A DNA stretch of 64,000 nucleotides, taken from positions 4,071,501 through 4,135,500 of the forward strand of contig NZ_LR027880.1 in assembly GCF_900537995.1 (NCBI RefSeq), in the 5' to 3' direction. Both the position numbers and the translations under genes were made by a program. The notes below the pieces were generated by a model. It had not been told where the DNA came from, made no database searches, and saw only the letters and a list, made by a program, of their open reading frames with translations. Shown piece by piece: positions 24,048 through 59,500 of the stretch (the first letter of the stretch is position 1; each line of letters starts with the position of its first letter). The DNA is from Roseburia intestinalis L1-82 (GTDB taxonomy: Bacteria > Bacillota > Clostridia > Lachnospirales > Lachnospiraceae).

Positions 24048-25361
24048 TTAAGCTGCTCTATATAGAAAGCTTATCGCCGACTGGGTCTTGACTTTGCGAG
24101 GGTCTATTCTCCCAGGACGTATAGGAAGAAGCTCATGTCCGATTAGATATTCTACATCGGGTGGAGCTTTTTCTTTTTTAATCGATAGAAAGTAACAGCA
24201 AATCCGAATTGCTCGGGTATAGTTGAGCTGATATGTATGTTTACAGCCTTTTTTCTCATTTATAACAACATTAGTTGCTATAATTTCACAGAAATTATAC
24301 AGAGTCATTCTTGACCATATTTCCTGCATAATATATTCTGGTTTCTTTGAATGAAAACGTGTTAGTCCTAAGGCATATTTCAATTCTCGAAAAGAGGTTT
24401 CTATTCCCCAACGTTTTGCATATAACCGTTTGATTTCATCAGAATTAAATTTATCTTGTGGCAGATTTGTAATAATGCATTCATAAGAACCTTGAGGTAT
24501 TGGAAAACGTATCACTCTCATTTTCATTTCGTAAAAATTATTAAAATGCAGATCAAGATAATCAAAAGGCGTTTTCTTATCAATAACTCTGTATTTTTTG
24601 GGATTTGCTTTTACTTCATTTGTCTGCTTTTTAGTAAGCGTAACATTAACCCATTCATCAAATTCCCCACTCTCTGGAAGCATTGTAAGTTTTGAAGTTA
24701 TACCATTACTTGTTATATCTTTGACACGAATTAAATAATACATTCCTTTGTGTTCCACATGGGCAAATATATTATAATTCTCATAACCCCTGTCTGCGAT
24801 AAAAATAGCTGATGTATCATTGTATCGGTCAATCATTTCACACATTGCACGTCTTTCATTCGCCAAGCGTGAAGGCTGGATAATTGCATCTGTGTATTGG
24901 CGGCTGCATAAATCATAAAAAGCATTTAAATGCAATAGGTTGTACCCTTTTCTGTCAGGAAGAGTTTGAAAATAGGTTGTTTCATCTTGGGGATTGTGTG
25001 CAATGCACAAATCCGAGCCATCACATGCAATCAGTCTAAGACCATTATATGTAACATTATCCGTAAAAGACTTTGTAAATTCTTGGAATAAAAATTCAAA
25101 TGCTTCAGGCAATATCTGTGCTCTACGCTGATTGAATGAAGAATTTGATGGTGTAGTATTATCAAATTCAAAATATTCCAACAGTTCATCTCTTAATGCT
25201 TTGCCTTCCATTGTAAGCATGAACTTCATAACCTCTTCAAATGACCATTTCTTTTTACGGGAAAAGTCCGTTTTTGGATGCTTTGTAAATAGCCAATAGT
25301 AAGAATCCATTTTTGTAATAATTGATAGTAATTTTTGTTTTACCTCTGTAGAATAATTCAT
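24048..25361 (-). CDS. IS4-family transposase
   Basis: 437 residues, full length. The DDE triad is visible as ACDGSD (first Asp), FIADRGY (second Asp) and YAKRWGIETSFRELK, which is the YREK signature of the IS4 family with the catalytic Glu. It cuts and pastes the element using the 22-bp ends. The start has an AAGGAG site, and a long hairpin lies about 45 bases upstream. It looks functional. Confidence 0.93.
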   Translation of the reverse strand: MNYSTEVKQKLLSIITKMDSYYWLFTKHPKTDFSRKKKWSFEEVMKFMLTMEGKALRDELLEYFEFDNTTPSNSSFNQRRAQILPEAFEFLFQEFTKSFTDNVTYNGLRLIACDGSDLCIAHNPQDETTYFQTLPDRKGYNLLHLNAFYDLCSRQYTDAIIQPSRLANERRAMCEMIDRYNDTSAIFIADRGYENYNIFAHVEHKGMYYLIRVKDITSNGITSKLTMLPESGEFDEWVNVTLTKKQTNEVKANPKKYRVIDKKTPFDYLDLHFNNFYEMKMRVIRFPIPQGSYECIITNLPQDKFNSDEIKRLYAKRWGIETSFRELKYALGLTRFHSKKPEYIMQEIWSRMTLYNFCEIIATNVVINEKKGCKHTYQLNYTRAIRICCYFLSIKKEKAPPDVEYLIGHELLPIRPGRIDPRKVKTQSAISFLYRAA

Positions 25362-26709: not shown

Positions 26710-26744
26710 AAAATCCATGTTCCTTAAATTGGAACATGGATTTT
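26710..26744 (-). terminator. 14-bp stem-loop terminator
   Basis: Perfect 14-bp stem (AAAATCCATGTTCC with its complement) and seven-base loop, followed on the minus strand by a T-rich run. It ends the reductase/esterase/symporter operon 24 bases after its last stop codon. Confidence 0.85.
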
Positions 26745-26767: not shown

Positions 26768-28702
26768 TTATATTTCACATGCCACATCATATGCTGATTT
26801 AATAGCATGATCAATATTACTTGGACGTTCTCCAGCACAATCACCAATATAGTGAAGTGGGAGAGGACAATCAGAAAGCTCTGGAAGGTTCTTTCTTGCA
26901 CCAACAGCCATTACAACAAAGTCTGAAGCAATTTCTTCTGTTGATGTATTGTCGTCTATTGTTTTTTCAACAACTACAGAATCATCTTTGATTTCTGATA
27001 ATTTTGCAGATGTTACTATTTGAACATTATAATGCTCTAATTCACTCATTAGAGTAGGTAGAACAGTGTTGCTTTCTTCTTTTGCAATCTGGTCCATCAT
27101 TTCAATAATTGTAACCTTACATCCACGTGAAGCCAGATATTCAGCTGTCTCAACACCTACAAGACCACCACCGATTACAGAAACATTACCGAATACGATT
27201 TCTTTCTTGGCAAGCACATCCCATGCACTTGTAACAGTTGGAAGATCTTTGCCAGGAACAGGGATTATTGCGTTGTTCGCACCTGTTGCCACAATTACTT
27301 CATCGAATGAATTATAATCCTGTGATGTGAATTCTTCACCTAGCCTGAATGTAACATCTAATTCAGGAAGTACATTTGCATAATAATTAATACTTCTCAT
27401 CATTTCTTCTTTTCTTGGAGGTACACTAGCAATAAGTAACTGACCACCAATCTGAAGTGATTTCTCAAAAATGGTTACACTATGACCTCTTAATGCAGCA
27501 ACACGTGCAGCTTCAAGTCCAGCAATACCAGCACCAATAATAGCTATTTTCTTTGATGATGCTGCAGGAGTTATATGTCGTGTTGCTTCGTAACCGTTTT
27601 CAGCATTAAGTACACAACTTAAGAAAGCACGATTCTGAATATTATCTGTACATCCCTTATTGCACATCATACATGTTCTGACATTACAGCAATGTCCATC
27701 TGCGCATTTGTTTGCAAAGTCAGGGTCTGTGAGAAGAGAACGACCTAATCCAATGATATCAGCAGAACCATTTGCAATAACTGCTTCGGCAGCTTCTGGT
27801 GTAACGATACGGCCTACTACAGATACAGGAATAGATACAAGCTCTTTTATTTTTTTAGAATAAGAAACCATAAATCCGTATGGCTGTGTTCCCATGGCAG
27901 GGATTGTATCACCCATATTTCCTGTATGGTTAGCCTGTGCAACATGTAATGTGTCAACACCGCAAGCTTCTAATTCTTTTGCAAAAATGCAAGCCTCATC
28001 AAATGGAAGACCACCTTTTCCTCTAAAACTATTTTCTCCAAGAGGAGTAACTATAGGAAGCTTGTAGTCGATAACCATGTCAGGTACGATTGTTTTTAAT
28101 CTTTTTACAAGTGTTAATGCAAAACGTGTACGATTAGCCAGGTCACCGCCATATTCATCAGTTCTATGATTTAAAATAGGAGAGCAGAGAGAACCAACAA
28201 GACGGTCTCCATGTACTTCAATACAATCAACACCAGCTTCGTGTGCTAAGATAGCACAGTTTTCCATATGCTTTATTATTTCATCAAGTTCTTCTGCAGT
28301 TACTTCATTTACAAAGTGCTGCATATCATGGTGAAGTTTAGCTCTTGCTTCCTGCATTTTGCCCTGATGGAACATATCGTTTAAAGCTTTGACATTGTAG
28401 TCAGGATGGAATAACTGAATTCCAAGCTTTGCACCATTTTCATGACATGCGTCAGCAAGTTTTTTGAAGCTTTGAACCTGCTCAGGTGAATAAAGCTTTG
28501 GTGTAGGAGAGAATGTTGGAAGTGGTGCAACATCTCCAATTACTATATATCCGACACCGCCTTTTGCGAGACGCTCGTAAAAACGAAAACTTTGTTCTCC
28601 AATTGAACCATCTTTTTCCTCATATCCTGTTGTAAGTGGTGGGAACATAATACGGTTTTTAAACTCAATATTTCCAACTTTTATAGGCTCTAATAATTTC
28701 AT
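26768..28702 (-). CDS. flavin/iron-sulfur ene-reductase (OYE / 2,4-dienoyl-CoA reductase family)
   Basis: 644 residues in three parts: an FMN-binding TIM barrel (1-~335), a [4Fe-4S] cluster site (Cys344, Cys347, Cys351, Cys363) and an FAD/NAD(P) domain (IAIIGAGIAGLEAA near 385; VSVIGGGLVGVETA near 505). Such enzymes reduce C=C bonds conjugated to a carbonyl using NADH. At the active-site strand it reads HGDRLVGSLCSP (164-175) where FadH-like proteins carry a catalytic Tyr, so it belongs to a divergent clade. It is the last gene of an operon with a feruloyl-esterase-like hydrolase and a cation symporter, which suggests reduction of an acrylate side chain or a related dietary enone. The substrate is inference. 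Confidence 0.88.
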   Translation of the reverse strand: MKLLEPIKVGNIEFKNRIMFPPLTTGYEEKDGSIGEQSFRFYERLAKGGVGYIVIGDVAPLPTFSPTPKLYSPEQVQSFKKLADACHENGAKLGIQLFHPDYNVKALNDMFHQGKMQEARAKLHHDMQHFVNEVTAEELDEIIKHMENCAILAHEAGVDCIEVHGDRLVGSLCSPILNHRTDEYGGDLANRTRFALTLVKRLKTIVPDMVIDYKLPIVTPLGENSFRGKGGLPFDEACIFAKELEACGVDTLHVAQANHTGNMGDTIPAMGTQPYGFMVSYSKKIKELVSIPVSVVGRIVTPEAAEAVIANGSADIIGLGRSLLTDPDFANKCADGHCCNVRTCMMCNKGCTDNIQNRAFLSCVLNAENGYEATRHITPAASSKKIAIIGAGIAGLEAARVAALRGHSVTIFEKSLQIGGQLLIASVPPRKEEMMRSINYYANVLPELDVTFRLGEEFTSQDYNSFDEVIVATGANNAIIPVPGKDLPTVTSAWDVLAKKEIVFGNVSVIGGGLVGVETAEYLASRGCKVTIIEMMDQIAKEESNTVLPTLMSELEHYNVQIVTSAKLSEIKDDSVVVEKTIDDNTSTEEIASDFVVMAVGARKNLPELSDCPLPLHYIGDCAGERPSNIDHAIKSAYDVACEI

Positions 28703-28731
28703 TGTTCATACTTCCTTTCAAAGTGAGTATA

Positions 28732-29484
28732 CTATTTAAGTGGTGTTAAAAACTCTAACATTAATTTGTCTAATTCTGCTCTTGCAAAAGCACTGGCAAA
28801 ATTGTGGTTAGCGCCTTCAATCGTTTTATAATTGCATTTTCCATTGTAAAGTGACTCATATCTATGGCATGTTGCATCATCTACCAAATCATCTGCAGTT
28901 CCTCTTATAAGGAGGACTGGTCCGTTGTATCCTTCTGCTGACGAGAATGGCTCATAATTAAATAAATCATGATTAAAGGATGTTGGGAAAGTGAGTCCTT
29001 CAATATCGGCCTTGGTGATTCCCTGAGCTTCCATGGCTTCAGCACGATCCTTACATCCAAACCACATTCCAGCACCTGGACACATAAGCATGAGAGCATA
29101 AGGATTAACAATAGGAGCGGCAGTAGCAGCTGCGTATCCTCCCATACTCTGACCAGATAAGATAATCTTATCTGGATTGGCAAAATCTTGTGTTTTAGTC
29201 CAGTTTATAATATCCTCGATATCGTGTAGGATACCTGTAAAGGTCATGTCCTCGAATTCACCATCACTTTCACCATTTCCGTATAAATCAAAACGGACAC
29301 TGGCAAATCCATGTTCAGCTAAGAATCTGGCTGTGTGAGTATAAATACTTTTGTAACCGCTTTTATTCCCTGTAAAGCCATGTACATTTACAATAGCAGG
29401 AAATCTTGTGCCATCTTCTGGAATGTTAACTATTCCGCGTAAGATGTGTCCATCACGGTTTGTGATTTCTACTTGTTTTGTCAA
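28732..29484 (-). CDS. alpha/beta hydrolase, cinnamoyl/feruloyl-esterase-like
   Basis: 250 residues. The nucleophile is Ser113 in GQSMGG, a likely acid is Asp199 in GTADDLVDD and the His is 227 in EGANHNF. The segment ASVRFDLYGNGESDGEFEDM (61-80) is close to the pattern of cinnamoyl esterases of gut lactobacilli (LJ0536 type), which release hydroxycinnamic acids from dietary esters such as chlorogenic acid. No signal peptide, so it is cytoplasmic and would act after import. It sits between the symporter and the ene-reductase with 24-29-base gaps. Other peptidase or esterase roles remain possible. Confidence 0.85.
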   Translation of the reverse strand: MTKQVEITNRDGHILRGIVNIPEDGTRFPAIVNVHGFTGNKSGYKSIYTHTARFLAEHGFASVRFDLYGNGESDGEFEDMTFTGILHDIEDIINWTKTQDFANPDKIILSGQSMGGYAAATAAPIVNPYALMLMCPGAGMWFGCKDRAEAMEAQGITKADIEGLTFPTSFNHDLFNYEPFSSAEGYNGPVLLIRGTADDLVDDATCHRYESLYNGKCNYKTIEGANHNFASAFARAELDKLMLEFLTPLK

Positions 29485-29508
29485 TTTAAAATACCTCCGT
29501 TTCTAATT

Positions 29509-30888
29509 TTATTCTGCAGTAGCAGCATTTCGCTTGTCAGCTAAATCCTGTAACATTTCAGCTGTTTTCTCTTTTGTAAGAGGGTAGATAAATTTTAATA
29601 CCAGAACAGCTAATAAATATCCTACAACATATAAACCTGTATATGTTTTCCAAAGACGTCCTGAGAATGCTTCATTCTGGACAGCTTCATTAACCTGGAA
29701 TCCAGCAATTGCAAGTGCAAAACTACTCATACTTCCTGATACAGCATTAGCAAGTTTACGGAAGAATGTATATGCTGAATATACAATTCCTTCATTACGT
29801 TTTCCTGTCTGAAGTTCCTGATAATCAATTGCATCATTTACAAGTGCCCAAACTAATACTTGGAAACCACTTACTCCAAGATAGCAGATTCCGTTGATGA
29901 TAATAAAGAGCATAGGATTTTCAAGTGGGAAGAAGAATAAAATAGCATAAACAACAACTGAGAAAGTTGCACTGTACATAATCCATTCTTTCTTTCCAAA
30001 TTTCTTAGCAACAAATTTTGTGCCTACAAATGCAATAAGTGACCAGATTACACTTAACATACCTGAAACTGCCATGATGGCAACATTTCCAAAATAATCG
30101 CGGAATAAATAAGTATTTAATCCGTTAACCATACCTGCTCCAACAATACCGATAAAGCTTGATAACATAACTCCGAGTAATGCTTTGTTTTTAGTAATAT
30201 CTTTAATTACCTGGAAGTAGTTAAGCTTTTCTTTTTTCTCAACAACTGGCTCTGTAATAATACGCTCTTTACACCAATGAGATGTAAACATAAGACAGAT
30301 TAATCCAATAACTGCACAGATTGCTGACATAATAAGGAAATGGCTAGGTACTGGCTGGTTATCTTTATATAAGAATAATGGTCCAGCAATAACGATAACT
30401 GTCATAAAAATTGTACCGCCAAGACTTCTGAAACGAGAAAGGTCAGTACGTTGGTTAACATCATCAGTCATTACACTTGAAAGACTACCAAATGGAACGC
30501 TGACACATGTGTACATAATTTCGTAAACAATATATGTAATGAACATATAAGCAATACGTGCACCATAAGCGAAATTGCTTACGTTAACAAATCCTAATAT
30601 ACAGAGTACTGCAGTTGGAAAAGCAAAGAATTTAATCCAAGGAATAAATTTTCCTTTTCCTTTGTTTTTGTGGCTATCAACAAGTGCACCAATTAAAGGG
30701 TCATTTATAGCATCCCAAAACTTTGTAATAAGCATAAGGATTCCTACGTGTACTGGATTAACTTTTAATACCAGTGTATAAAAAATAGCAAGATACATGG
30801 CACGGAACTGCTCAGTACAGCAACATCCCAAATCGCCAAGAGTGTAACCAATTTTGTCCTTCATGGAAAAAGGTCTTGTTTCTTTCAT
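29509..30888 (-). CDS. MFS cation symporter of the GPH (MelB-like) family
   Basis: 459 residues with about 12 membrane helices. The N-terminal helix-1/2 pattern KIGYTLGDLG and the motif FWDAINDPLIGALVDSHKNK are typical of glycoside-pentoside-hexuronide:cation symporters, where the Asp pair binds Na+ or H+. Near the C-terminus, ALVNDAIDYQELQTGKRNEG is the second family hallmark. It is the first gene of the operon and would bring in the ester or glycoside used by the two enzymes downstream. Its substrate is not predictable from sequence alone. Confidence 0.9.
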   Translation of the reverse strand: MKETRPFSMKDKIGYTLGDLGCCCTEQFRAMYLAIFYTLVLKVNPVHVGILMLITKFWDAINDPLIGALVDSHKNKGKGKFIPWIKFFAFPTAVLCILGFVNVSNFAYGARIAYMFITYIVYEIMYTCVSVPFGSLSSVMTDDVNQRTDLSRFRSLGGTIFMTVIVIAGPLFLYKDNQPVPSHFLIMSAICAVIGLICLMFTSHWCKERIITEPVVEKKEKLNYFQVIKDITKNKALLGVMLSSFIGIVGAGMVNGLNTYLFRDYFGNVAIMAVSGMLSVIWSLIAFVGTKFVAKKFGKKEWIMYSATFSVVVYAILFFFPLENPMLFIIINGICYLGVSGFQVLVWALVNDAIDYQELQTGKRNEGIVYSAYTFFRKLANAVSGSMSSFALAIAGFQVNEAVQNEAFSGRLWKTYTGLYVVGYLLAVLVLKFIYPLTKEKTAEMLQDLADKRNAATAE

Positions 30889-31079
30889 GATAATTTACCT
30901 CCCAAATTTATATTGTTTTGGTAGCTACAATCTTATTATATTGTGGTTATGCTGATATCCATATACAAATATTGCTTGCAAACTACGAAAAATTGATATA
31001 TTGTATATTTTGACAAAATGAACAAAAAATATAATAGGAAAGTGTGCAAAATAGACATATGAAAAAGCAAGGCTACAAA
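30889..31079. promoter_or_regulatory. divergent promoter region of symporter operon and AraC gene
   Basis: On the minus strand a TATAAT box (30935-30940) precedes the symporter by ~47 bases and has no good -35 element, as expected for a promoter that needs an AraC-type activator. On the plus strand TTGACA and TATAAT boxes lie at about 31010-31034 before the regulator gene, with short spacing. The region is AT-rich. Confidence 0.45.
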
Positions 31080-31901
31080 ATGGAATATTTGAAAATATTG
31101 GATAGTACCCAGCGAAGCTTTGGGCAAAAGAAGAGCTATACAATTGTATTTATAGCTGGTGGGATAGGGTATATGCACCAGGAGGATGATAATATTGTAT
31201 GTACTATGGAGGATTTGATATTTATTAAGCCAGGTAATAAAGTAAAGCTTGAATATCGTAAAAATAAGTATCCTCTTGAAGTTTATGTTCTTTATATAGG
31301 TGAAGAACTTTTAAGGAAATTGTCAGATGAAGAAACAAGACTTGATGAAGCGTTTGATTTTGTTCCGTATCAAGTTAAGATTGTTCATTCTGAGAGTGAA
31401 TCGGCTATGCTTATAAAGAATATATCCAAAAAGCTCTATTCTATGAATAATGAGCCGCCTAAATTTGCCCGCTCATTATACGAGAAAAGCCTATTAACTA
31501 TGATTCTTGTACTTGCACTTCGCTCATCTGTTCAGGAGGATGTACAGATTAAGACGAATAAGAAAAAACACGTTGTAATGGATGATATTTTTATTTATAT
31601 CAGAGAACATTTGACAGAAGATATCTCGTTGGAGCGCTTGGAAAATGAATTTTATGTAAGCCGTTATCATATAGTAAGAGAGTTTAAAAAAATGACAGGT
31701 GAGACACCTCATTCATACATTGTAAAGAGCAGACTTGATTTATGCCGCCATTATATAGAGCAGGGGAAAAGTATTCGTGAGGTATATGCGCTTGGTGGAT
31801 TTGGAGGGTATAATCATTTTTTTAGAGCATTTAAGAAAGAATATGGTGTTACTCCAATGCAATATTACAATAATTTACAGATTGACAGGAATGAAAAGTA
31901 A
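31080..31901 (+). CDS. AraC-family transcriptional regulator
   Basis: 273 residues from ATG 31080 (AAGG eight bases upstream); a GTG at 31044 and an ATG at 31059 are in frame but lie too close to the likely transcription start. The N-terminal part is a cupin-like sensor (for example GGIGYMHQEDDNIVCTMEDL), and the last ~100 residues hold the double helix-turn-helix (LERLENEFYVSRYHIVREF; LGGFGGYNHFFRAFKKEYG). It is transcribed away from the symporter/esterase/reductase operon and most likely activates it in response to the substrate. Confidence 0.9.
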   Translation: MEYLKILDSTQRSFGQKKSYTIVFIAGGIGYMHQEDDNIVCTMEDLIFIKPGNKVKLEYRKNKYPLEVYVLYIGEELLRKLSDEETRLDEAFDFVPYQVKIVHSESESAMLIKNISKKLYSMNNEPPKFARSLYEKSLLTMILVLALRSSVQEDVQIKTNKKKHVVMDDIFIYIREHLTEDISLERLENEFYVSRYHIVREFKKMTGETPHSYIVKSRLDLCRHYIEQGKSIREVYALGGFGGYNHFFRAFKKEYGVTPMQYYNNLQIDRNEK

Positions 31902-34746: not shown

Positions 34747-36123
34747 TTAGCTTGTTTCCTGACTACTCAGGAAAAATATTTCTACCCTCGCCCCACCTGT
34801 ATTTTCAGAACTTGAAAGTTTAATCCCTCCGCCATATTTTTCAGCCACAGTTTTTGCGAAAAAAAGCCCAATCCCATAATGGGCTTTGCCATTTCTACTT
34901 GTGTCATCCATAAAAAACTGCTCTGTGCCATGCAATAATGCTTCTTTTGTAAATCCTGATCCGCTATCCTCCACAATGAATGTCAGCCGGTCATCCTGCT
35001 CCTTTGCGTCAATATAAATGATTCCATTTTCTTTTGTATGCTCCACTGCATTCTGAATCACATTCATTACGGCCCGGAACATTGGATCATAAGCAATCGT
35101 TACCTTTTTATCACTTTGTTCCGCCTTCCAATCTATCTTCTGGTGATAGATTTCTACCAGTCCGAGTGCCTGTTCCTTTATATCTGCGAAAAAATCTTCT
35201 AACCTCACCGTTGTATAGGTAACATCATTGCAATTCCATGATTTTGTGACATCTATCAACTGTTTTACATAACTTTGTATCTGTGTTGTGCCGTTCAAAA
35301 CATAAGTGATATTTTTCTTCTGTTCTGTGGTCAGTTCAGTCTCTGAAAGTAGTTCTGCATTTCCCCGTACAATCGTAAGAGGTGTTTTAATATCATGCGC
35401 CAAAGCAGACATCTGCTGTTTCTTTTCCTGCTCTGTTTTCCACTGCTTTTCTAAAGATTCTCGCAATGCATCTCGCATATCATCGATTGCCGATAAACAG
35501 TCATCAAACTCTTTGATACCGGAACAGGATGTCTCATATTCCAGATTTTGATCCTTTATTTGTCTGATTGCGTCTAATACAGGCTGCATCTGCTTTTTGA
35601 TTCTTTTTCCAAAACGTATGGACGGAATGATGATAATCGCTACCGCTCCAATCACAGACATAATAATCATCACATTCTGTGGCCCTATAAAATGCTCCCT
35701 CAAAAAAGCTGAATGATATTGAGGTGTCAGGCGATATTGCAATACAACATATTCATTTTCCCTTACAATTACTTTATAAAAATATTTCCCGGATGCGTTT
35801 CCGTACTTTGCAACATTCCATGCTATCTGTTCGTATTGTTCTGACAGATCTCCACCTATTTTCTCTCCATTCTCTGAAAAGATTACATAATCACAAAGTG
35901 CGGGAATCATCTCAGCAGTCACTTTATCTGCACGTAGAATCGTATCATATGCTTCATTAATCTTTTGCTCTGCATAATTTGCCGGATAAATACAGCCCAC
36001 ACTAATCAAAAGGTACAGCAGCAGCCAAGCAACAATCACCAAACCTACTAATGATCCAAGCATGACCAGTACATATCTCATAAAAATCCTGCTGAGTGCA
36101 TTGCTTCTCTTTACTCTTCCCAT
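34747..36123 (-). CDS. LanK/SpaK-type sensor histidine kinase
   Basis: 458 residues. Two membrane helices (near residues 15-40 and 150-170) enclose a short extracellular sensor. The H-box is MSALAHDIKTPLTIVRGN, and the ATPase domain has VIQNAVEHT, VEDSGSGFT and HYGIGLFFAK. The pattern is that of SpaK/NsrK-like kinases that sense lantibiotics or other cationic peptides and switch on an immunity transporter. It overlaps the regulator stop by 13 bases and follows the transporter genes, like the CprABC-KR system of clostridia. Confidence 0.88.
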   Translation of the reverse strand: MGRVKRSNALSRIFMRYVLVMLGSLVGLVIVAWLLLYLLISVGCIYPANYAEQKINEAYDTILRADKVTAEMIPALCDYVIFSENGEKIGGDLSEQYEQIAWNVAKYGNASGKYFYKVIVRENEYVVLQYRLTPQYHSAFLREHFIGPQNVMIIMSVIGAVAIIIIPSIRFGKRIKKQMQPVLDAIRQIKDQNLEYETSCSGIKEFDDCLSAIDDMRDALRESLEKQWKTEQEKKQQMSALAHDIKTPLTIVRGNAELLSETELTTEQKKNITYVLNGTTQIQSYVKQLIDVTKSWNCNDVTYTTVRLEDFFADIKEQALGLVEIYHQKIDWKAEQSDKKVTIAYDPMFRAVMNVIQNAVEHTKENGIIYIDAKEQDDRLTFIVEDSGSGFTKEALLHGTEQFFMDDTSRNGKAHYGIGLFFAKTVAEKYGGGIKLSSSENTGGARVEIFFLSSQETS

Positions 36124-36773
36124 TTATATCCAATCCCCCAGACTGTTTTTATCGGTGTATAATCATAATCCGCAAATTTTGCTCTTATATTTTTGATATG
36201 CGTGATAATGGTACTGTCATTACTCTCATTGTCAAAGCCAAAGACCGCTTCCAATATCTGTTCCTTCGAGAAAACCTGTCCTCTGTTTTTAGCCAGAAAT
36301 TCACAGATTTCGTACTCCGCTTTCGTAAGAGGAAGTTCCTTATCATCAACCAATAGTTTCTTTTGAGATATTTGAATACAGACCCTCCCCAAAACCATCC
36401 GGACAGAATGTTCCCTGTGCTCTCTTCTAAGATGTGCATTGATCCTTGCCCGAAGTTCCATCACTCCAAATGGCTTTGAAATATAATCATCTGCTCCTAA
36501 AGAAAGTCCGTTTACCAGACTGTTTTCCTCCGTTTTTGCCGTAAGAAACAAAATCGGACAATCCACAAGTGCCCTGATTCTTTTGCATAATTCGAAGCCA
36601 TCAATTCCAGGCATCATAATGTCCAGTAAAATCAGGTCATAACGATGTAATTCTTCCATATTAATTTTTAGTGGATTACTTACTTTTGTAACCAGATGTC
36701 CATCCTTATTCAAAATGCTTTCTATCATTTCCAAAATTGCCGGTTCATCATCAACTGCCAGTATTTTTGCCAT
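36111..36773 (-). CDS. OmpR-family response regulator
   Basis: 220 residues from ATG 36773, chosen for the GAGGG site upstream and because it lies 15 bases after the permease stop. The receiver has Asp8/9, phospho-acceptor Asp51 (LILLDIMMPGIDG) and Lys in YISKPF. The C-terminal winged helix ends in IKTVWGIGYKWEE. It would activate the upstream transporter genes on the signal from its kinase. Confidence 0.9.
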   Translation of the reverse strand: MAKILAVDDEPAILEMIESILNKDGHLVTKVSNPLKINMEELHRYDLILLDIMMPGIDGFELCKRIRALVDCPILFLTAKTEENSLVNGLSLGADDYISKPFGVMELRARINAHLRREHREHSVRMVLGRVCIQISQKKLLVDDKELPLTKAEYEICEFLAKNRGQVFSKEQILEAVFGFDNESNDSTIITHIKNIRAKFADYDYTPIKTVWGIGYKWEE

Positions 36774-36787
36774 AGTTTCCCTCGATT

Positions 36788-37528
36788 CTATTCCGATATT
36801 CTGTTTCCTTCCCAGTGGTTTACCCACCAAAAATAGTATACCATACTAATCCCTGTAAATATTAAGCAACCTGGTATGAATGACAACCATTCACCTACAC
36901 TAGTTTCTCCCAATACAGATTGCAGATAAGTATATGGTACTCTACCCGTCCAGCAGACAAATACATATTTCCACACATAATCTCCAAGTCCGGTAAGCAT
37001 CAATGCACTAATTAGTCCTGATATAATCCCTGCTCCAATGGATACCCCTTTTCCAAACTGAAAAGCCAGAATCAGCTGCCACAGATAAAGTGGAACACTG
37101 CTTCCCCACAGCAGCAATGCTGCAAATATACATCCTTTCATGATTTCGATATCGCTTGATGCGATTCTTCCAAATCCAATTCCGAATATGATTGCTGTCA
37201 ATAGGATAGAGCACAGACACAAAACCAGTAGCATCAACAGTTTCGATAAAAATGCTGCAGGTTTATCCGGTAAAGACAACAGATTTTGAAAATCACCTGC
37301 ATTTTGTTCCTGTTCCATCACACTTGCTGTAAAAATTCCAATAAGTACCGGAAGTCCTGCTCCTATTGCCTGATAAAATGCAATCACTTTCATATTTTCA
37401 TTCCATGGTGAAAAAAAGTAATATATTAAAAATATAACGCTGGTTATAATCGGAATCAGTAAGTGTGCCAGAATCACAGATGTTCCTTTCATCTTTCGCA
37501 AGTCTGCATTAAGAGATCTTCCAATCAT
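36788..37528 (-). CDS. lantibiotic-immunity-type ABC permease (LanG-like)
   Basis: 246 residues with six membrane helices, no ATPase motifs. The N-terminal MIGRSLNADLRKMKGTS and the loop MEQEQNAGDFQNLLSLP are typical of the MutG/EpiG permeases that remove lantibiotics from the membrane. It follows the other permease by one base, so the two are translated together. The nearby kinase and regulator fit the same role. Confidence 0.82.
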   Translation of the reverse strand: MIGRSLNADLRKMKGTSVILAHLLIPIITSVIFLIYYFFSPWNENMKVIAFYQAIGAGLPVLIGIFTASVMEQEQNAGDFQNLLSLPDKPAAFLSKLLMLLVLCLCSILLTAIIFGIGFGRIASSDIEIMKGCIFAALLLWGSSVPLYLWQLILAFQFGKGVSIGAGIISGLISALMLTGLGDYVWKYVFVCWTGRVPYTYLQSVLGETSVGEWLSFIPGCLIFTGISMVYYFWWVNHWEGNRISE

Positions 37529-37529
37529 C

Positions 37530-38261
37530 TTATTTCACCTCTCTTCTCTCAAACCATTTCAAAAACAGAACCGTTACAAAAACAAACCAGATGATTGAGA
37601 GACACATTCCCGGAACAATGACTCCCGTATCCAAAAGAGGATTCCCTGCTTCTGCGGCAAGTCCATTTGGTAAAACATGAAGCAACGGGCACATCATTCG
37701 CATAGGGATTGCAGAAACAAGTACATACCAGATTCTGGTTTGTGATATTACCACACCGCTGACGGTAATAAATAGGCAGACGAACAGGTTTACAATCATT
37801 CCAAATCGTTCACTTAAAAATAAAGCTACCGGAATCTCCCATAACTCAGAAACCGTCAGAAACAATACTGCAATCAACGCTCCTTTCACTGGAACATGTG
37901 TCGTTAGAAGAAAGCCTCCAAGCGTTGCTCCTGCAAACACAATCACATTAGAAAACAAAATCATGTACCCAATATAAATAATTTTCCCCAGCAACAATTT
38001 TCTTCTGTCTGTGGGAATAGTCATTAAATGATAGTATTTTATCTTTTTCTCCTGCGCCACAGAAAGATAACAAAATAGAGCAATCATCCCCGGCAGCAAA
38101 AGTGTATACCACCAGTTCCAAACACTTTCTGCATAAGCATTTGTCATCCCAAGAGTAAATATAAATGCCATGACAAATGTAAGAAGAGGAAATCCCCAGA
38201 TAAACTTTTTTCGCATGGTTCTTTTGGCTTTTTGATGTTCTGCTTTTATAATATTAACCAT
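37530..38261 (-). CDS. lantibiotic-immunity-type ABC permease (LanE-like)
   Basis: 243 residues from ATG 38261 (AGGTG six bases upstream), overlapping the ATPase stop; a GTG three codons earlier is also possible. Six membrane helices; the signature WNWWYTLLLPGMIALFCYL after the first helix is typical of MutE/EpiE-type permeases. It forms the transporter with the second permease and the ATPase. No lantibiotic precursor or synthetase gene lies nearby, so this is probably a defence system against peptides made by other bacteria. Confidence 0.82.
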   Translation of the reverse strand: MVNIIKAEHQKAKRTMRKKFIWGFPLLTFVMAFIFTLGMTNAYAESVWNWWYTLLLPGMIALFCYLSVAQEKKIKYYHLMTIPTDRRKLLLGKIIYIGYMILFSNVIVFAGATLGGFLLTTHVPVKGALIAVLFLTVSELWEIPVALFLSERFGMIVNLFVCLFITVSGVVISQTRIWYVLVSAIPMRMMCPLLHVLPNGLAAEAGNPLLDTGVIVPGMCLSIIWFVFVTVLFLKWFERREVK

Positions 38262-38967
38262 GGATTTCACCTGCTTTCTGGTTTTTTCTTACCACATTCA
38301 TAAACAAATCTTCAAGATTATCTCCCTGCTTTAATGCTCCTTCGTATCCTAAGATTCCACCTGAAATAATCCCGACTTTATCTGCAAGTAACTGTACCTC
38401 TGAGAGAATATGACTGGAGAGAATTACAGTGATTCCCTGTTCCGGAAAAGACCGGATCAGCTCTCGTAATTCCTCGATGCCTATTGGATCTAATCCATTC
38501 GTAGGTTCATCCAATATCAAGAGTTCCGGTTCTCCAAGCAATGCCATTGCAATTCCTAGTCTTTGTTTCATTCCCAAAGAAAACTGTCCTGCTTTCTTCT
38601 TTCCGGTGTTTGTAAGTGATACAATCTGCAAGACCTCATCAATTCTGTTTTCATCTGTACCAAGCAATAATTGTCTTACCTTCAAATTCTCTCTGGCGGA
38701 AAGATTTTCATAAATAGGCGGATTTTCAATTAACGCTCCTATTTTTGATAAATCTTTCCTATCCAAAAGTTTTCCATCAAAGTAAATCTTTCCTGCAGTT
38801 GGTTTCATCATACCAGTCAACATTTTCAATGTGGTAGATTTTCCCGCACCATTCGGTCCAAGCAGTCCATAAATCTGTTTCTTTTCTATATTAAGTGAAA
38901 CATTATTTACCGCTTTCTGCTTTCTAAAATATTTACACAAATTTTGTGTCTGCAACATCATTTCCAT
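38254..38967 (-). CDS. lantibiotic-immunity-type ABC ATPase (LanF-like)
   Basis: 237 residues from ATG 38967, which has GGAAGGA eight bases upstream; an earlier ATG lies before that site. Walker A GPNGAGKST, Q-loop region LIENPPIYENL, signature FSLGMKQRLGIAMALLG, Walker B LLILDEPTNGLD and H-loop SSHILSEVQ are all intact. The IENPPIY pattern and the neighbours identify it as the ATPase of a bacteriocin-immunity exporter (MutF/EpiF/CprA type). It is the first gene of the five-gene operon. Confidence 0.88.
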   Translation of the reverse strand: MEMMLQTQNLCKYFRKQKAVNNVSLNIEKKQIYGLLGPNGAGKSTTLKMLTGMMKPTAGKIYFDGKLLDRKDLSKIGALIENPPIYENLSARENLKVRQLLLGTDENRIDEVLQIVSLTNTGKKKAGQFSLGMKQRLGIAMALLGEPELLILDEPTNGLDPIGIEELRELIRSFPEQGITVILSSHILSEVQLLADKVGIISGGILGYEGALKQGDNLEDLFMNVVRKNQKAGEIHG

Positions 38968-39071
38968 CTTTACTATCCTTCCTTCCATATTTCATTTCTT
39001 ACTGAAATATAACCTAACAGAAAAAAATAAAGATTTGATGAAGATTGCTAAATAATTCGTCTACTCTATTT

Positions 39072-42314: not shown

Positions 42315-43304
42315 TTATTTATTCTGCCATCTGACTTCGCCCTTGGACAGAAGCGGATAACAGATCAGCTGATCTGAATCCAGATTTTCTGCATGCATGT
42401 CAACCGCTGTGATCTGATGATTATCATAAGTCGTATAATAATAAATACCTTTTGCTGTATTACAACAGGACGTGTATATCGTGATCTCATATTTGCCTTC
42501 TGTCACCTCACAGCATCCACGCTGCTGATCTACGGATCCTAAGATATGGAAGAACTGGCTTACACTCTCATCCTCTTCTTCACCGGAGATCGAATTTAAT
42601 TTTGTAAAGGCAACTTTCACAAATCTTGACTGGCTGGAAAGATCTCCAGGTATTCCCATTCCACCCATTCCTCTGCTATATGCATCAAGCTGTAATACTC
42701 CTGCAAAAGTACTCTCCGGCTGTTTTCTGGATACTCCGGCATAATTATTCAGTGCAAACATCTGACTCGGGAATGGGGGATTATTGGTAAGCACTCCTAC
42801 CGGATTATCATATACATGCAGCCCATCTTTCATAGACTCAACAACGATACAGGAGTCTTTGTCTGCAATGATCCAGTGAAGCTGTGCTGTCGGCAGCTGT
42901 TCACTGAATGCTGTACCTGTCAGTCTCATTGCTGCCAGCTTCTCTCTCGCCTCTGCTACAGTAGCACACTGTGTAAGGATCCATGGGATGAACTCGAACT
43001 GTGCCACCTGGCTGACTTCTGTTTCATCTTCCGGCAAAGCCTCTTCATATGCCGCATTGCCGACAAAATTAAGACCTGCCATTCCAAGGCCTTTTTCATT
43101 AACAGCATCATAATAAAGCGGATAAACTTCTGCAACAAATGCCATTCCGATCAAAGCATAATGGCTTTTTATCTTCCCGGAAAACCGGAAATCAAATTCG
43201 TAATTTCTTGGCGTTATCGTGATCTGTTCCCCATAGGAAAATTCATAATCAAGCGTTCTGCCCATATAAAAATCTTTTGTTTTGTAAGTTGCTGCTGTAC
43301 ACAT
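42315..43304 (-). CDS. bsh: bile salt hydrolase (choloylglycine hydrolase family)
   Basis: 329 residues, the exact length of characterised enzymes, from ATG 43304 (AGAGGTG six bases upstream). This start places the nucleophile at Cys2 after Met removal; a GTG three codons earlier would bury it and is rejected. Conserved positions are all present: Arg16, Asp19, Asn79, Asn174 and Arg227, with the NNPPFP motif. The enzyme splits glycine or taurine from conjugated bile acids in the cytosol. The related penicillin V acylases share the fold, but the residue pattern favours bile salts. It lies 50 bases upstream of ftsH and probably shares its transcript. Confidence 0.9.
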   Translation of the reverse strand: MCTAATYKTKDFYMGRTLDYEFSYGEQITITPRNYEFDFRFSGKIKSHYALIGMAFVAEVYPLYYDAVNEKGLGMAGLNFVGNAAYEEALPEDETEVSQVAQFEFIPWILTQCATVAEAREKLAAMRLTGTAFSEQLPTAQLHWIIADKDSCIVVESMKDGLHVYDNPVGVLTNNPPFPSQMFALNNYAGVSRKQPESTFAGVLQLDAYSRGMGGMGIPGDLSSQSRFVKVAFTKLNSISGEEEDESVSQFFHILGSVDQQRGCCEVTEGKYEITIYTSCCNTAKGIYYYTTYDNHQITAVDMHAENLDSDQLICYPLLSKGEVRWQNK

Positions 43305-43325
43305 ATCGAACACCTCTTCTTTCTG

Positions 43326-58210: not shown

Positions 58211-59500
58211 TTACGCAGACTTTAGCTGCTCTCCCGGATGTCGGATGCCTTCCAACATCTTTGATGCATCATAGCTAACTCCCTTGGTAAGGATCACATG
58301 GAATACTCTTATCAGCTTACATGCTACTGCTATCAACGACTGCATCTTTTTTAATGGATTCTTTTCCCTGGTGGTGTAATACCTGTGGATTTCTTTGAAT
58401 TCTTCATTCTTTCCCACCACCGATATCGCCGCCTCGAAAAGAAGATATCTGAGACGCTTGCGCCCTCTTTTGCTTATCTTTGTCTTTCCGTTGTGCTTAC
58501 CGGAACTATCTGCCACCAGTTCTAATCCTGCCAGTTTCTGAAGTTCTTTCGTGCTATCGAAGCGCGTGATATCACCAACTTCTGCTATGAAACCAGCTAC
58601 TGTTGTTATTCCTATGCCCTTTATTTCAAGCAGCTTATCCGCATACCTGATCTGCTGGCACAGTTCTTTGATCAGATCATTGACCCGTTCAAGGCGTTTT
58701 GTCTGGAGTTCATAATCCTCTATCAGATCCTGTATCTCCATCCGGGCTTCTGTAAGACCTGTTCTTAATCCTATGCTTCTCATTGCCGCATTCAGGATCT
58801 TCAGTGCCTTTTTATTCCCATTTCTCCGGAGTTTGGCATCTTTCCATATCTTTATGATGCCTTCTTCTCCAAGCTTTACTATCTCCTCGGGAGTCGGTGC
58901 CTGTTTTAATACCAGCAGACCTCCCTTGGCATCTATGTGTGTATAAATTCCCTTATATTCCGGAAAATACACCGCAATCCATTTCTGCAGACGGTTCTTC
59001 GCCCTGGTCTGTTCTTCTACAAGCACAAACCGGCGGTTTGACGCATTCCGCAGTTCTGCATATACACCTGTCGGCATATAGGAATAAAAATACCGTCCAT
59101 CCCTTACAAGCCCTGCAATAACACGCGGATCTTTTCTGTCATTTTTAGATGGACTGTTGTCATCTAACTCTTTGGTCTTATGCACATGGTGCGGATTTAC
59201 CATCACAAACTTTATACTCTTTTCGCCCATGAACTGCCCAAGATCAAACCAGTAATGACCGGTTGGTTCAATTCCTACCAGTGCCTCTTCAAGTTCACTT
59301 TTCTGCATCAGCTCCACAATCGTATTGTAAAAGCTATTGAATCCCTCCATAGAGTTTGAAAACGCTACAGGCTTTCTGGTAAGCTCAATGCCTCTCCAGT
59401 TAAAAGCTCTGAAATAATGCTTTTCACTGCCAACATCAATACCAACAATCATTGTTGTTTCTTTTACTTGCTCAATCTTCTTGTTTTGTGTAGAATTCAT
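58211..59500 (-). CDS. IS110-family transposase
   Basis: 429 residues. The N-terminal DEDD domain starts MIVGIDVGSEKHYFRAF and continues ALVGIEPTGHYW and NDRKDPRVIAGL, giving the acidic catalytic residues. The C-terminal Transposase_20 domain has LLEIKGIGITTVAGFIAEVG and a Ser-containing stretch (LELVADSSGKHNGKTKISK), the recombinase-like catalytic part. A good AAGGAAGG site precedes the start. It looks complete, so the element may be active. Its insertion or an associated deletion removed the N-terminal half of the neighbouring restriction gene. Confidence 0.92.
   Translation of the reverse strand: MNSTQNKKIEQVKETTMIVGIDVGSEKHYFRAFNWRGIELTRKPVAFSNSMEGFNSFYNTIVELMQKSELEEALVGIEPTGHYWFDLGQFMGEKSIKFVMVNPHHVHKTKELDDNSPSKNDRKDPRVIAGLVRDGRYFYSYMPTGVYAELRNASNRRFVLVEEQTRAKNRLQKWIAVYFPEYKGIYTHIDAKGGLLVLKQAPTPEEIVKLGEEGIIKIWKDAKLRRNGNKKALKILNAAMRSIGLRTGLTEARMEIQDLIEDYELQTKRLERVNDLIKELCQQIRYADKLLEIKGIGITTVAGFIAEVGDITRFDSTKELQKLAGLELVADSSGKHNGKTKISKRGRKRLRYLLFEAAISVVGKNEEFKEIHRYYTTREKNPLKKMQSLIAVACKLIRVFHVILTKGVSYDASKMLEGIRHPGEQLKSA

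Follow-up and report, generated by a model that had tools for sequence, protein, structure and literature searches.

A candidate bile-pigment operon joining a symporter and an esterase to a bilirubin-reductase-class gene in Roseburia intestinalis L1-82

What compound is handled by a gene set in which a symporter, an esterase and an ene-reductase follow one another closely beside a divergent AraC-family regulator? Such a set occupies positions 26768 to 31901 of the window, the 64,000-nucleotide stretch of Roseburia intestinalis L1-82 analyzed here, which belongs to a genome of one contig (4,493,348 bases). A first-pass annotation, made from the letters alone, had read the set as one regulated import-hydrolyse-reduce unit, hypothetically for a dietary hydroxycinnamate ester or similar plant compound. 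Its anatomy was correct, with four genes in place, three of them closely spaced and the AraC gene divergent, and the single unit was borne out by the gene families and their conserved order. The proposed substrate was unlikely, because the reductase belonged to the BilR family and the hydrolase failed the feruloyl and cinnamoyl tests. Our best explanation, to which we give a little less than an even chance, is a bile-pigment operon that would import a conjugate, hydrolyse it inside the cell and reduce the product by BilR.

The reductase and its two partners

The last gene of the run (26768..28702, minus strand) encodes a BilR-like protein of 644 aa with the Pfam domains Oxidored_FMN and Pyr_redox_2, of the Old Yellow Enzyme (OYE) type. 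It passed the NCBIfam model for the long form of bilirubin reductase (NF045599; 1044.8 bits, cut-off 750) as well as the BilR domain model (NF045592; 528.1 bits, cut-off 425), and the HGDR active-site motif was found at residues 164-167. This motif was present in 84 of the 85 aligned BilR rows, the exception being locus L124 (see below). According to the main text of Hall et al. (2024; PMC10769871), HGDR delimits the BilR clade and mutation of the DR pair abolished activity; R. intestinalis is already listed there as a bilR carrier. A CxxCxxxC-x11-C motif was visible in the sequence. Since the insertion found near residues 111-115 in other BilR members was missing, we take the protein to be of the type termed basal in the main text of a preprint (Jiang et al., 2026; PMC13252198). 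All ten relatives scanned, out of 84, passed both BilR cut-offs. One of the ten comes from Faecalibacillus intestinalis, and the bilR-bilV operon of this species was functional in E. coli according to the same main text (PMC13252198). Among the best 80 of 180 related loci, the closest BilR (98%) was that of [Lactobacillus] rogosae ATCC 27753, placed in Lachnospira by NCBI taxonomy. Membership of the bilirubin-reductase class is well supported by these comparisons, and the enzyme very probably acts on bilirubin. The other full-length OYE match of the genome lacked the BilV motif AHAH, so that the predicted products would keep their vinyl groups under the scheme in the main text of PMC13252198.

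Upstream of bilR, an alpha/beta-hydrolase of 250 aa with a TTG start and the Pfam Hydrolase_4 fold is encoded (28732..29484, minus strand). Its likely catalytic triad, S113, D198 and H227, was invariant across 17 esterase orthologues, and the AlphaFold2 model had a mean pLDDT of 88.7 and a pTM of 0.89. The cinnamoyl-esterase signature seen by the first-pass annotation stood as superfamily kinship and failed as specific closeness: with a profile of the 17 orthologues, the top solved protein was a monoacylglycerol lipase (7q4h, 200 bits), which outscored a ferulic acid esterase (7z2u, 135 bits) and a cinnamoyl esterase (3pf8, 106 bits). The single protein reached 122.8 bits with 7q4h, a remote match; this structure is identified in the available part of PMC10682391 as the Tth monoacylglycerol lipase. 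No NCBIfam esterase cut-off and no feruloyl- or cinnamoyl-specific test was passed, and the matches to the mammalian protein 6ny9 (6.8e-6) and to Pfam Chlorophyllase (1.6e-4, under its cut-off) were weak. What the enzyme shares with the Tth lipase and the lid-bearing feruloyl and cinnamoyl esterases is the alpha/beta-hydrolase fold, the serine triad and, presumably, esters of amphipathic acids as substrates; however, the relationship is remote and the gene here is linked to bilR. Cleavage of acyl glucuronides by human esterases has been reported in the available part of PMC8793843.

The first gene of the run (29509..30888, minus strand) encodes a GPH-family cation symporter of 459 aa, which passed TIGR00792 (295 bits, cut-off 231.35) and matched Pfam MFS_2. 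The positions equal to MelB D55 and D59, presumably the cation-site aspartates, were retained, and the galactoside residues of MelB were not kept. When 19 symporter orthologues were compared with the E. coli relatives, the nearest was YihO for ten, GusB for eight and YicJ for one; YihO and GusB are both annotated as transporters of anionic glycosides. Residue R377 of the symporter was common to GusB, YihO and YihP, and not to MelB, YicJ and YagG. The gaps within the run are 24 and 29 nt, and a perfect 14-bp hairpin, noted by eye and terminator-like, lies 3' of bilR (26710..26744, minus strand).

Linkage of the partner genes to bilR

The neighbourhoods of 84 bilR loci were compared. The related-locus set consists of the best 80 of 180 and hence leans to close BilR kin. 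Near-identical Collinsella account for 13 of the bilR rows, in 19 loci the contig has fewer than three genes upstream, and some loci are cut by a contig end. The genomes and loci are not independent; L006, which is also genome G454, hardly differs from the window. The arrangement araC/GPH-esterase-bilR, in the same order and orientation, was found in 17 of the 84, with hosts in Roseburia, Agathobacter, other Lachnospiraceae, Faecalimonas, Faecalibacterium/Gemmiger, Clostridium thermobutyricum and Romboutsia timonensis, as well as metagenome-assembled genomes (MAGs). In a Faecousia MAG with an insertion-bearing BilR (L068), the genes of this quartet were present but rearranged. The esterase gene was present in 19 loci and adjacent to the symporter gene in 18 of these; one Collinsella locus (L034) carried the esterase gene and bilR with no symporter. 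In 26 loci a BilV-like gene lay near bilR, no more than five genes away on the upstream side or three on the downstream side. Neither symporter nor esterase was found in any of these 26, and no BilV-like gene was found in the 19 esterase/symporter loci.

A sample of 329 Lachnospiraceae genomes from 328 genera agreed, and conserved co-occurrence of the four genes, a check that the first-pass annotation had proposed, was supported. BilR exceeded its cut-off in nine of the 329. Esterase matches at E<=1e-35 occurred in five, namely G000, G454, G555 and G757 (51-100% identity) and G698 (34%), the latter a genome without a BilR hit. The symporter (E<=1e-110) was restricted to the same four genomes, G000, G454, G555 and G757, each time adjacent to bilR and the esterase gene on one contig, and these four esterase carriers were all among the nine bilR carriers (hypergeometric p 2.6e-7, relatedness ignored). 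Homologous operons in an unrelated sugar pathway, which had been named beforehand as the contrary outcome, did not appear: no symporter at E<=1e-110 was found away from bilR in the 329 genomes. A class-wide sample of 391 genomes added little: an esterase match (E<=1e-45) and a BilR score above cut-off were both confined to the organism's own genome. Linkage of the symporter and esterase genes to bilR is well supported by these counts.

Protein distances of the four quartet members were correlated over 15 loci (r 0.83-0.94), and the symporter was the most conserved of them (mean p-distance 0.30, compared with 0.36 for BilR). On the BilR tree, one of the trees obtained by quick searches with SH-aLRT support only, the quartet label required six changes, so gains, losses or transfers probably lie behind its distribution. 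L011 and L124 were placed within quartet clades and may have lost the symporter and esterase genes. A BilR above cut-off was encoded in Lysobacter antarcticus (L056:8001-9917), a proteobacterium that by name is not a gut organism; a role outside the gut or a different substrate is possible there.

The bilQ/bilR/bilS operons share with our locus the reductase family, by model and by HGDR (Hall et al., 2024; PMC10769871). However, the partners given in their main text are a MarR regulator (bilQ) and the flavodoxin-like bilS, whereas those in the window are the AraC regulator, the GPH symporter and the esterase, and neither a MarR gene nor a flavodoxin-like bilS was found beside the window's bilR. 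The main text of PMC10769871 mentions neither transporter nor hydrolase. The bilR-bilV operons (Jiang et al., 2026; PMC13252198) resemble the locus in having partner genes by bilR, with an AraC relative at five bilV-bilR loci, but differ in the AHAH-bearing second OYE, which is missing beside bilR in the window; the second OYE of the genome has a different motif. Transporter, symporter, hydrolase, glucuronide terms and AraC are not mentioned in the main text of this preprint. In E. coli, uidA-uidB (gusA-gusB) likewise pairs a GPH symporter with an aglycone-releasing hydrolase, but the window's hydrolase is a serine esterase and not a glycosidase, and its symporter is about 23% identical to GusB, below the cut-off. 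No published araC/GPH-esterase-bilR module was found in the PMC literature at the level of titles and abstract openings; figures or supplements could still show these genes. The reductase family and the bilR of R. intestinalis are known, and its regulated association with genes for importer and esterase appears to be undescribed.

A conserved element in the divergent promoter region

The AraC-family gene (31044..31901, plus strand; HTH_18, HTH_AraC and AraC_binding) has an uncertain start, with ATGs at 31059 and 31080 as alternatives. The divergent promoter region contains a conserved operator-like element, a probable AraC site (30961..31005, minus strand), followed by a -10-like hexamer, TATAAT, for the symporter-esterase-bilR transcript (30935..30940, minus strand). 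The element was conserved upstream of every quartet and the hexamer lay downstream of it in all 17 intergenic regions compared, which share a consensus of roughly TACAATAyATCAATTTTTGnTAGTTnnnnnGCAAnnAATGGATAT. In the Clostridium and Romboutsia loci the element was weaker, and there TATCAATTT was repeated at a spacing of 21 bp; the repeat was exact in L029 and L035 and had one mismatch in L063. AraC proteins usually have tandem half-sites about 21 bp apart. With a matrix built from 15 regions, of which L119 was mis-anchored, the window's element scored 42.5 and the maximum in 1,131,935 mononucleotide-shuffled bases was 13.9. With up to three mismatches allowed, the 4.49 Mb genome contained a single copy of the operator core, compared with zero for the reversed-pattern control.

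Outside the matrix, two loci with araC and bilR only had the element before bilR (42.8 in L011 and 34.3 in L124), and a further one (L117:10272-10316; 35.6) had it, reversed, in the intergenic gap ahead of a bilR-bilV pair of the insertion type with no adjacent AraC gene. Thus the element tracks bilR and not the genes for symporter and esterase, a pattern which suggests that the regulator senses the bile pigment or its conjugate. The regulatory unit is well supported, and the AraC protein probably uses the element. Scores of 10.4-13.8 in L030, L036, L046, L047, L060, L063 (a second place), L074, L080 and L082 were at noise level and not counted; those of L046, L047 and L080 sit upstream of bilV or bilR.

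The AraC group of the window adjoined bilR in 28 of the 84 loci, and five of these 28 also had bilV-like genes. A second, distinct AraC-family group (cluster 4, present in 11 loci in all) was observed beside bilR in Erysipelotrichia-type genomes and L026 (L021, L022, L025, L026, L027, L030, L040, L060, L064), and is possibly another bilR regulator. The BilR of L124 (L124:7523-9544) has HGGR for HGDR, extra residues and a long branch, while AraC and the operator are retained; because of the altered motif and the branch length, it is perhaps a decaying or re-purposed copy.

Bile pigment conjugates and the competing substrates

Most bilirubin enters the gut as its glucuronide, which is a glycoside of the acyl (ester) type, and free bilirubin is hydrophobic. 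The gene identities, the layout, the BilR class, the linkage and the conserved element can be read from the sequence, and a symporter of a glycoside family together with an esterase would be expected if the cell needs to take up and open a conjugate. In such an operon, the AraC regulator would switch on symporter, esterase and bilR through the element in the divergent promoter region; the symporter would import, with a cation, a water-soluble bilirubin conjugate (acyl glucuronide, acyl xyloside or acyl glucoside); the esterase would split the ester between bilirubin propionate and sugar inside the cell; and BilR would reduce the methine bridges of the released pigment, disposing of electrons, with the sugar acid available for catabolism. 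Conjugate import with deconjugation by the esterase is a tentative part of this scheme, somewhat short of even. More tentative again is the full combination, in which gut Clostridia import intact bilirubin acyl-glycosides by a dedicated GPH symporter, the esterase replaces beta-glucuronidase and a pigment-sensing AraC protein controls both, coupled to BilR. Beta-glucuronidase above cut-off was found in ten of the 18 quartet genomes, including that of the window (the copy in G035 has an internal stop), and in one of 12 other bilR genomes (p 0.018), a frequency that fits glucuronide users. Glucuronate isomerase was present in all 18 quartet genomes, in 4 of 15 other bilR genomes (a mixed set) and in 22 of 45 genomes of the family background, two of these being quartet genomes.

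Several observations weigh against the proposed operon. The symporter and esterase pair was missing from 66 of the 84 bilR loci, so bilirubin reduction needs neither. No enzyme of the basal BilR type appears among those assayed in the consulted text of PMC10769871 and PMC13252198, and L124, one of the loci where the operator was found outside the matrix, carries HGGR. The margins among the E. coli symporter relatives were small, with YicJ once the best. Furthermore, the symporter failed the GusB equivalog (NF007353; 203.2 bits, cut-off 528) and its best solved match was the lysolipid symporter MFSD2A, so an amphipathic substrate is also plausible. Of 16 further bilR-bearing Clostridia, 14 had glucuronate isomerase, which was rejected as a discriminating trait because it mostly reflects taxonomy. 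Beta-glucuronidase, where present in quartet genomes, is another candidate for the deconjugation.

A bile-pigment operon free of sugar conjugates, in which the symporter moves free pigment or exports the product and the esterase acts on a different bilin ester or is accessory, would fit the BilR class and the bilR linkage. The kinship with MFSD2A, the Collinsella locus that retains esterase and bilR alone, and the beta-glucuronidase already encoded by more than half of the quartet genomes also agree with it. However, free bilirubin, being hydrophobic, passes membranes without a carrier, and an esterase that recurs beside bilR, almost always next to the symporter, calls for an ester substrate; we consider this explanation rather unlikely. 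Breakdown of plant tetrapyrroles is improbable. Phyllobilins, which derive from chlorophyll, are linear tetrapyrroles with carboxymethyl esters that plants open with alpha/beta-hydrolases, and the weak Chlorophyllase match points the same way, with a BilR-type enzyme reducing the product; yet specific sequence evidence was not found and the need for a glycoside-family symporter is not obvious. An operon that takes up, hydrolyses and reduces a hydroxycinnamate ester or a comparable phenolic from plants, as first proposed, could draw on the cinnamoyl and chlorogenic acid esterases among the solved relatives and on a reductase that is an ene-reductase by superfamily. It was rejected as very improbable on the BilR identity, with curated cut-offs passed and HGDR present, and on the linkage, the partners being beside bilR in every orthologous case of the family sample; the better score of the monoacylglycerol lipase also speaks against it. 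A steroid or bile-acid enone operon of the BaiCD type is a shade less probable still. BaiCD (NF041087) was the third-best NCBIfam model of the reductase, and a gene for a bile salt hydrolase is found some 10 kb away, but the score was 447.6 bits, far under the cut-off of 825, whereas the BilR cut-offs were well exceeded and the HGDR motif was present, and this candidate was rejected.

Deconjugation is usually credited to other enzymes; in the proposed conjugate-importing operon, the esterase may strip the sugar. The agent of bilirubin deconjugation in the gut and the fate of the released pigment, reabsorption or reduction, are relevant to jaundice. If the proposal is right, importer and esterase would give common commensals such as Roseburia and Faecalibacterium a private, beta-glucuronidase-independent route that glucuronidase inhibitors would not block, in which intracellular deconjugation feeds BilR directly and no free bilirubin is released for reabsorption. 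The defined operon and operator permit a direct test.

Elsewhere in the window, the bile salt hydrolase (choloylglycine hydrolase) gene at 42315-43313 (minus strand; NF038245, 489.6 bits, cut-off 350) places two bile-related genes in one stretch. At 34747-38988 (minus strand), a two-component system adjoins an ABC transporter with a permease that scores 168.1 bits in the MutG lantibiotic-immunity model (cut-off 117.2); together they are probably a unit for self-protection or for resistance of the bacitracin or lantibiotic type. Transposase genes lie at 24048-25361 (minus strand; Pfam DDE_Tnp_1) and 58211-59500 (minus strand; IS110-like by eye), so movement of the area around the operon is possible.

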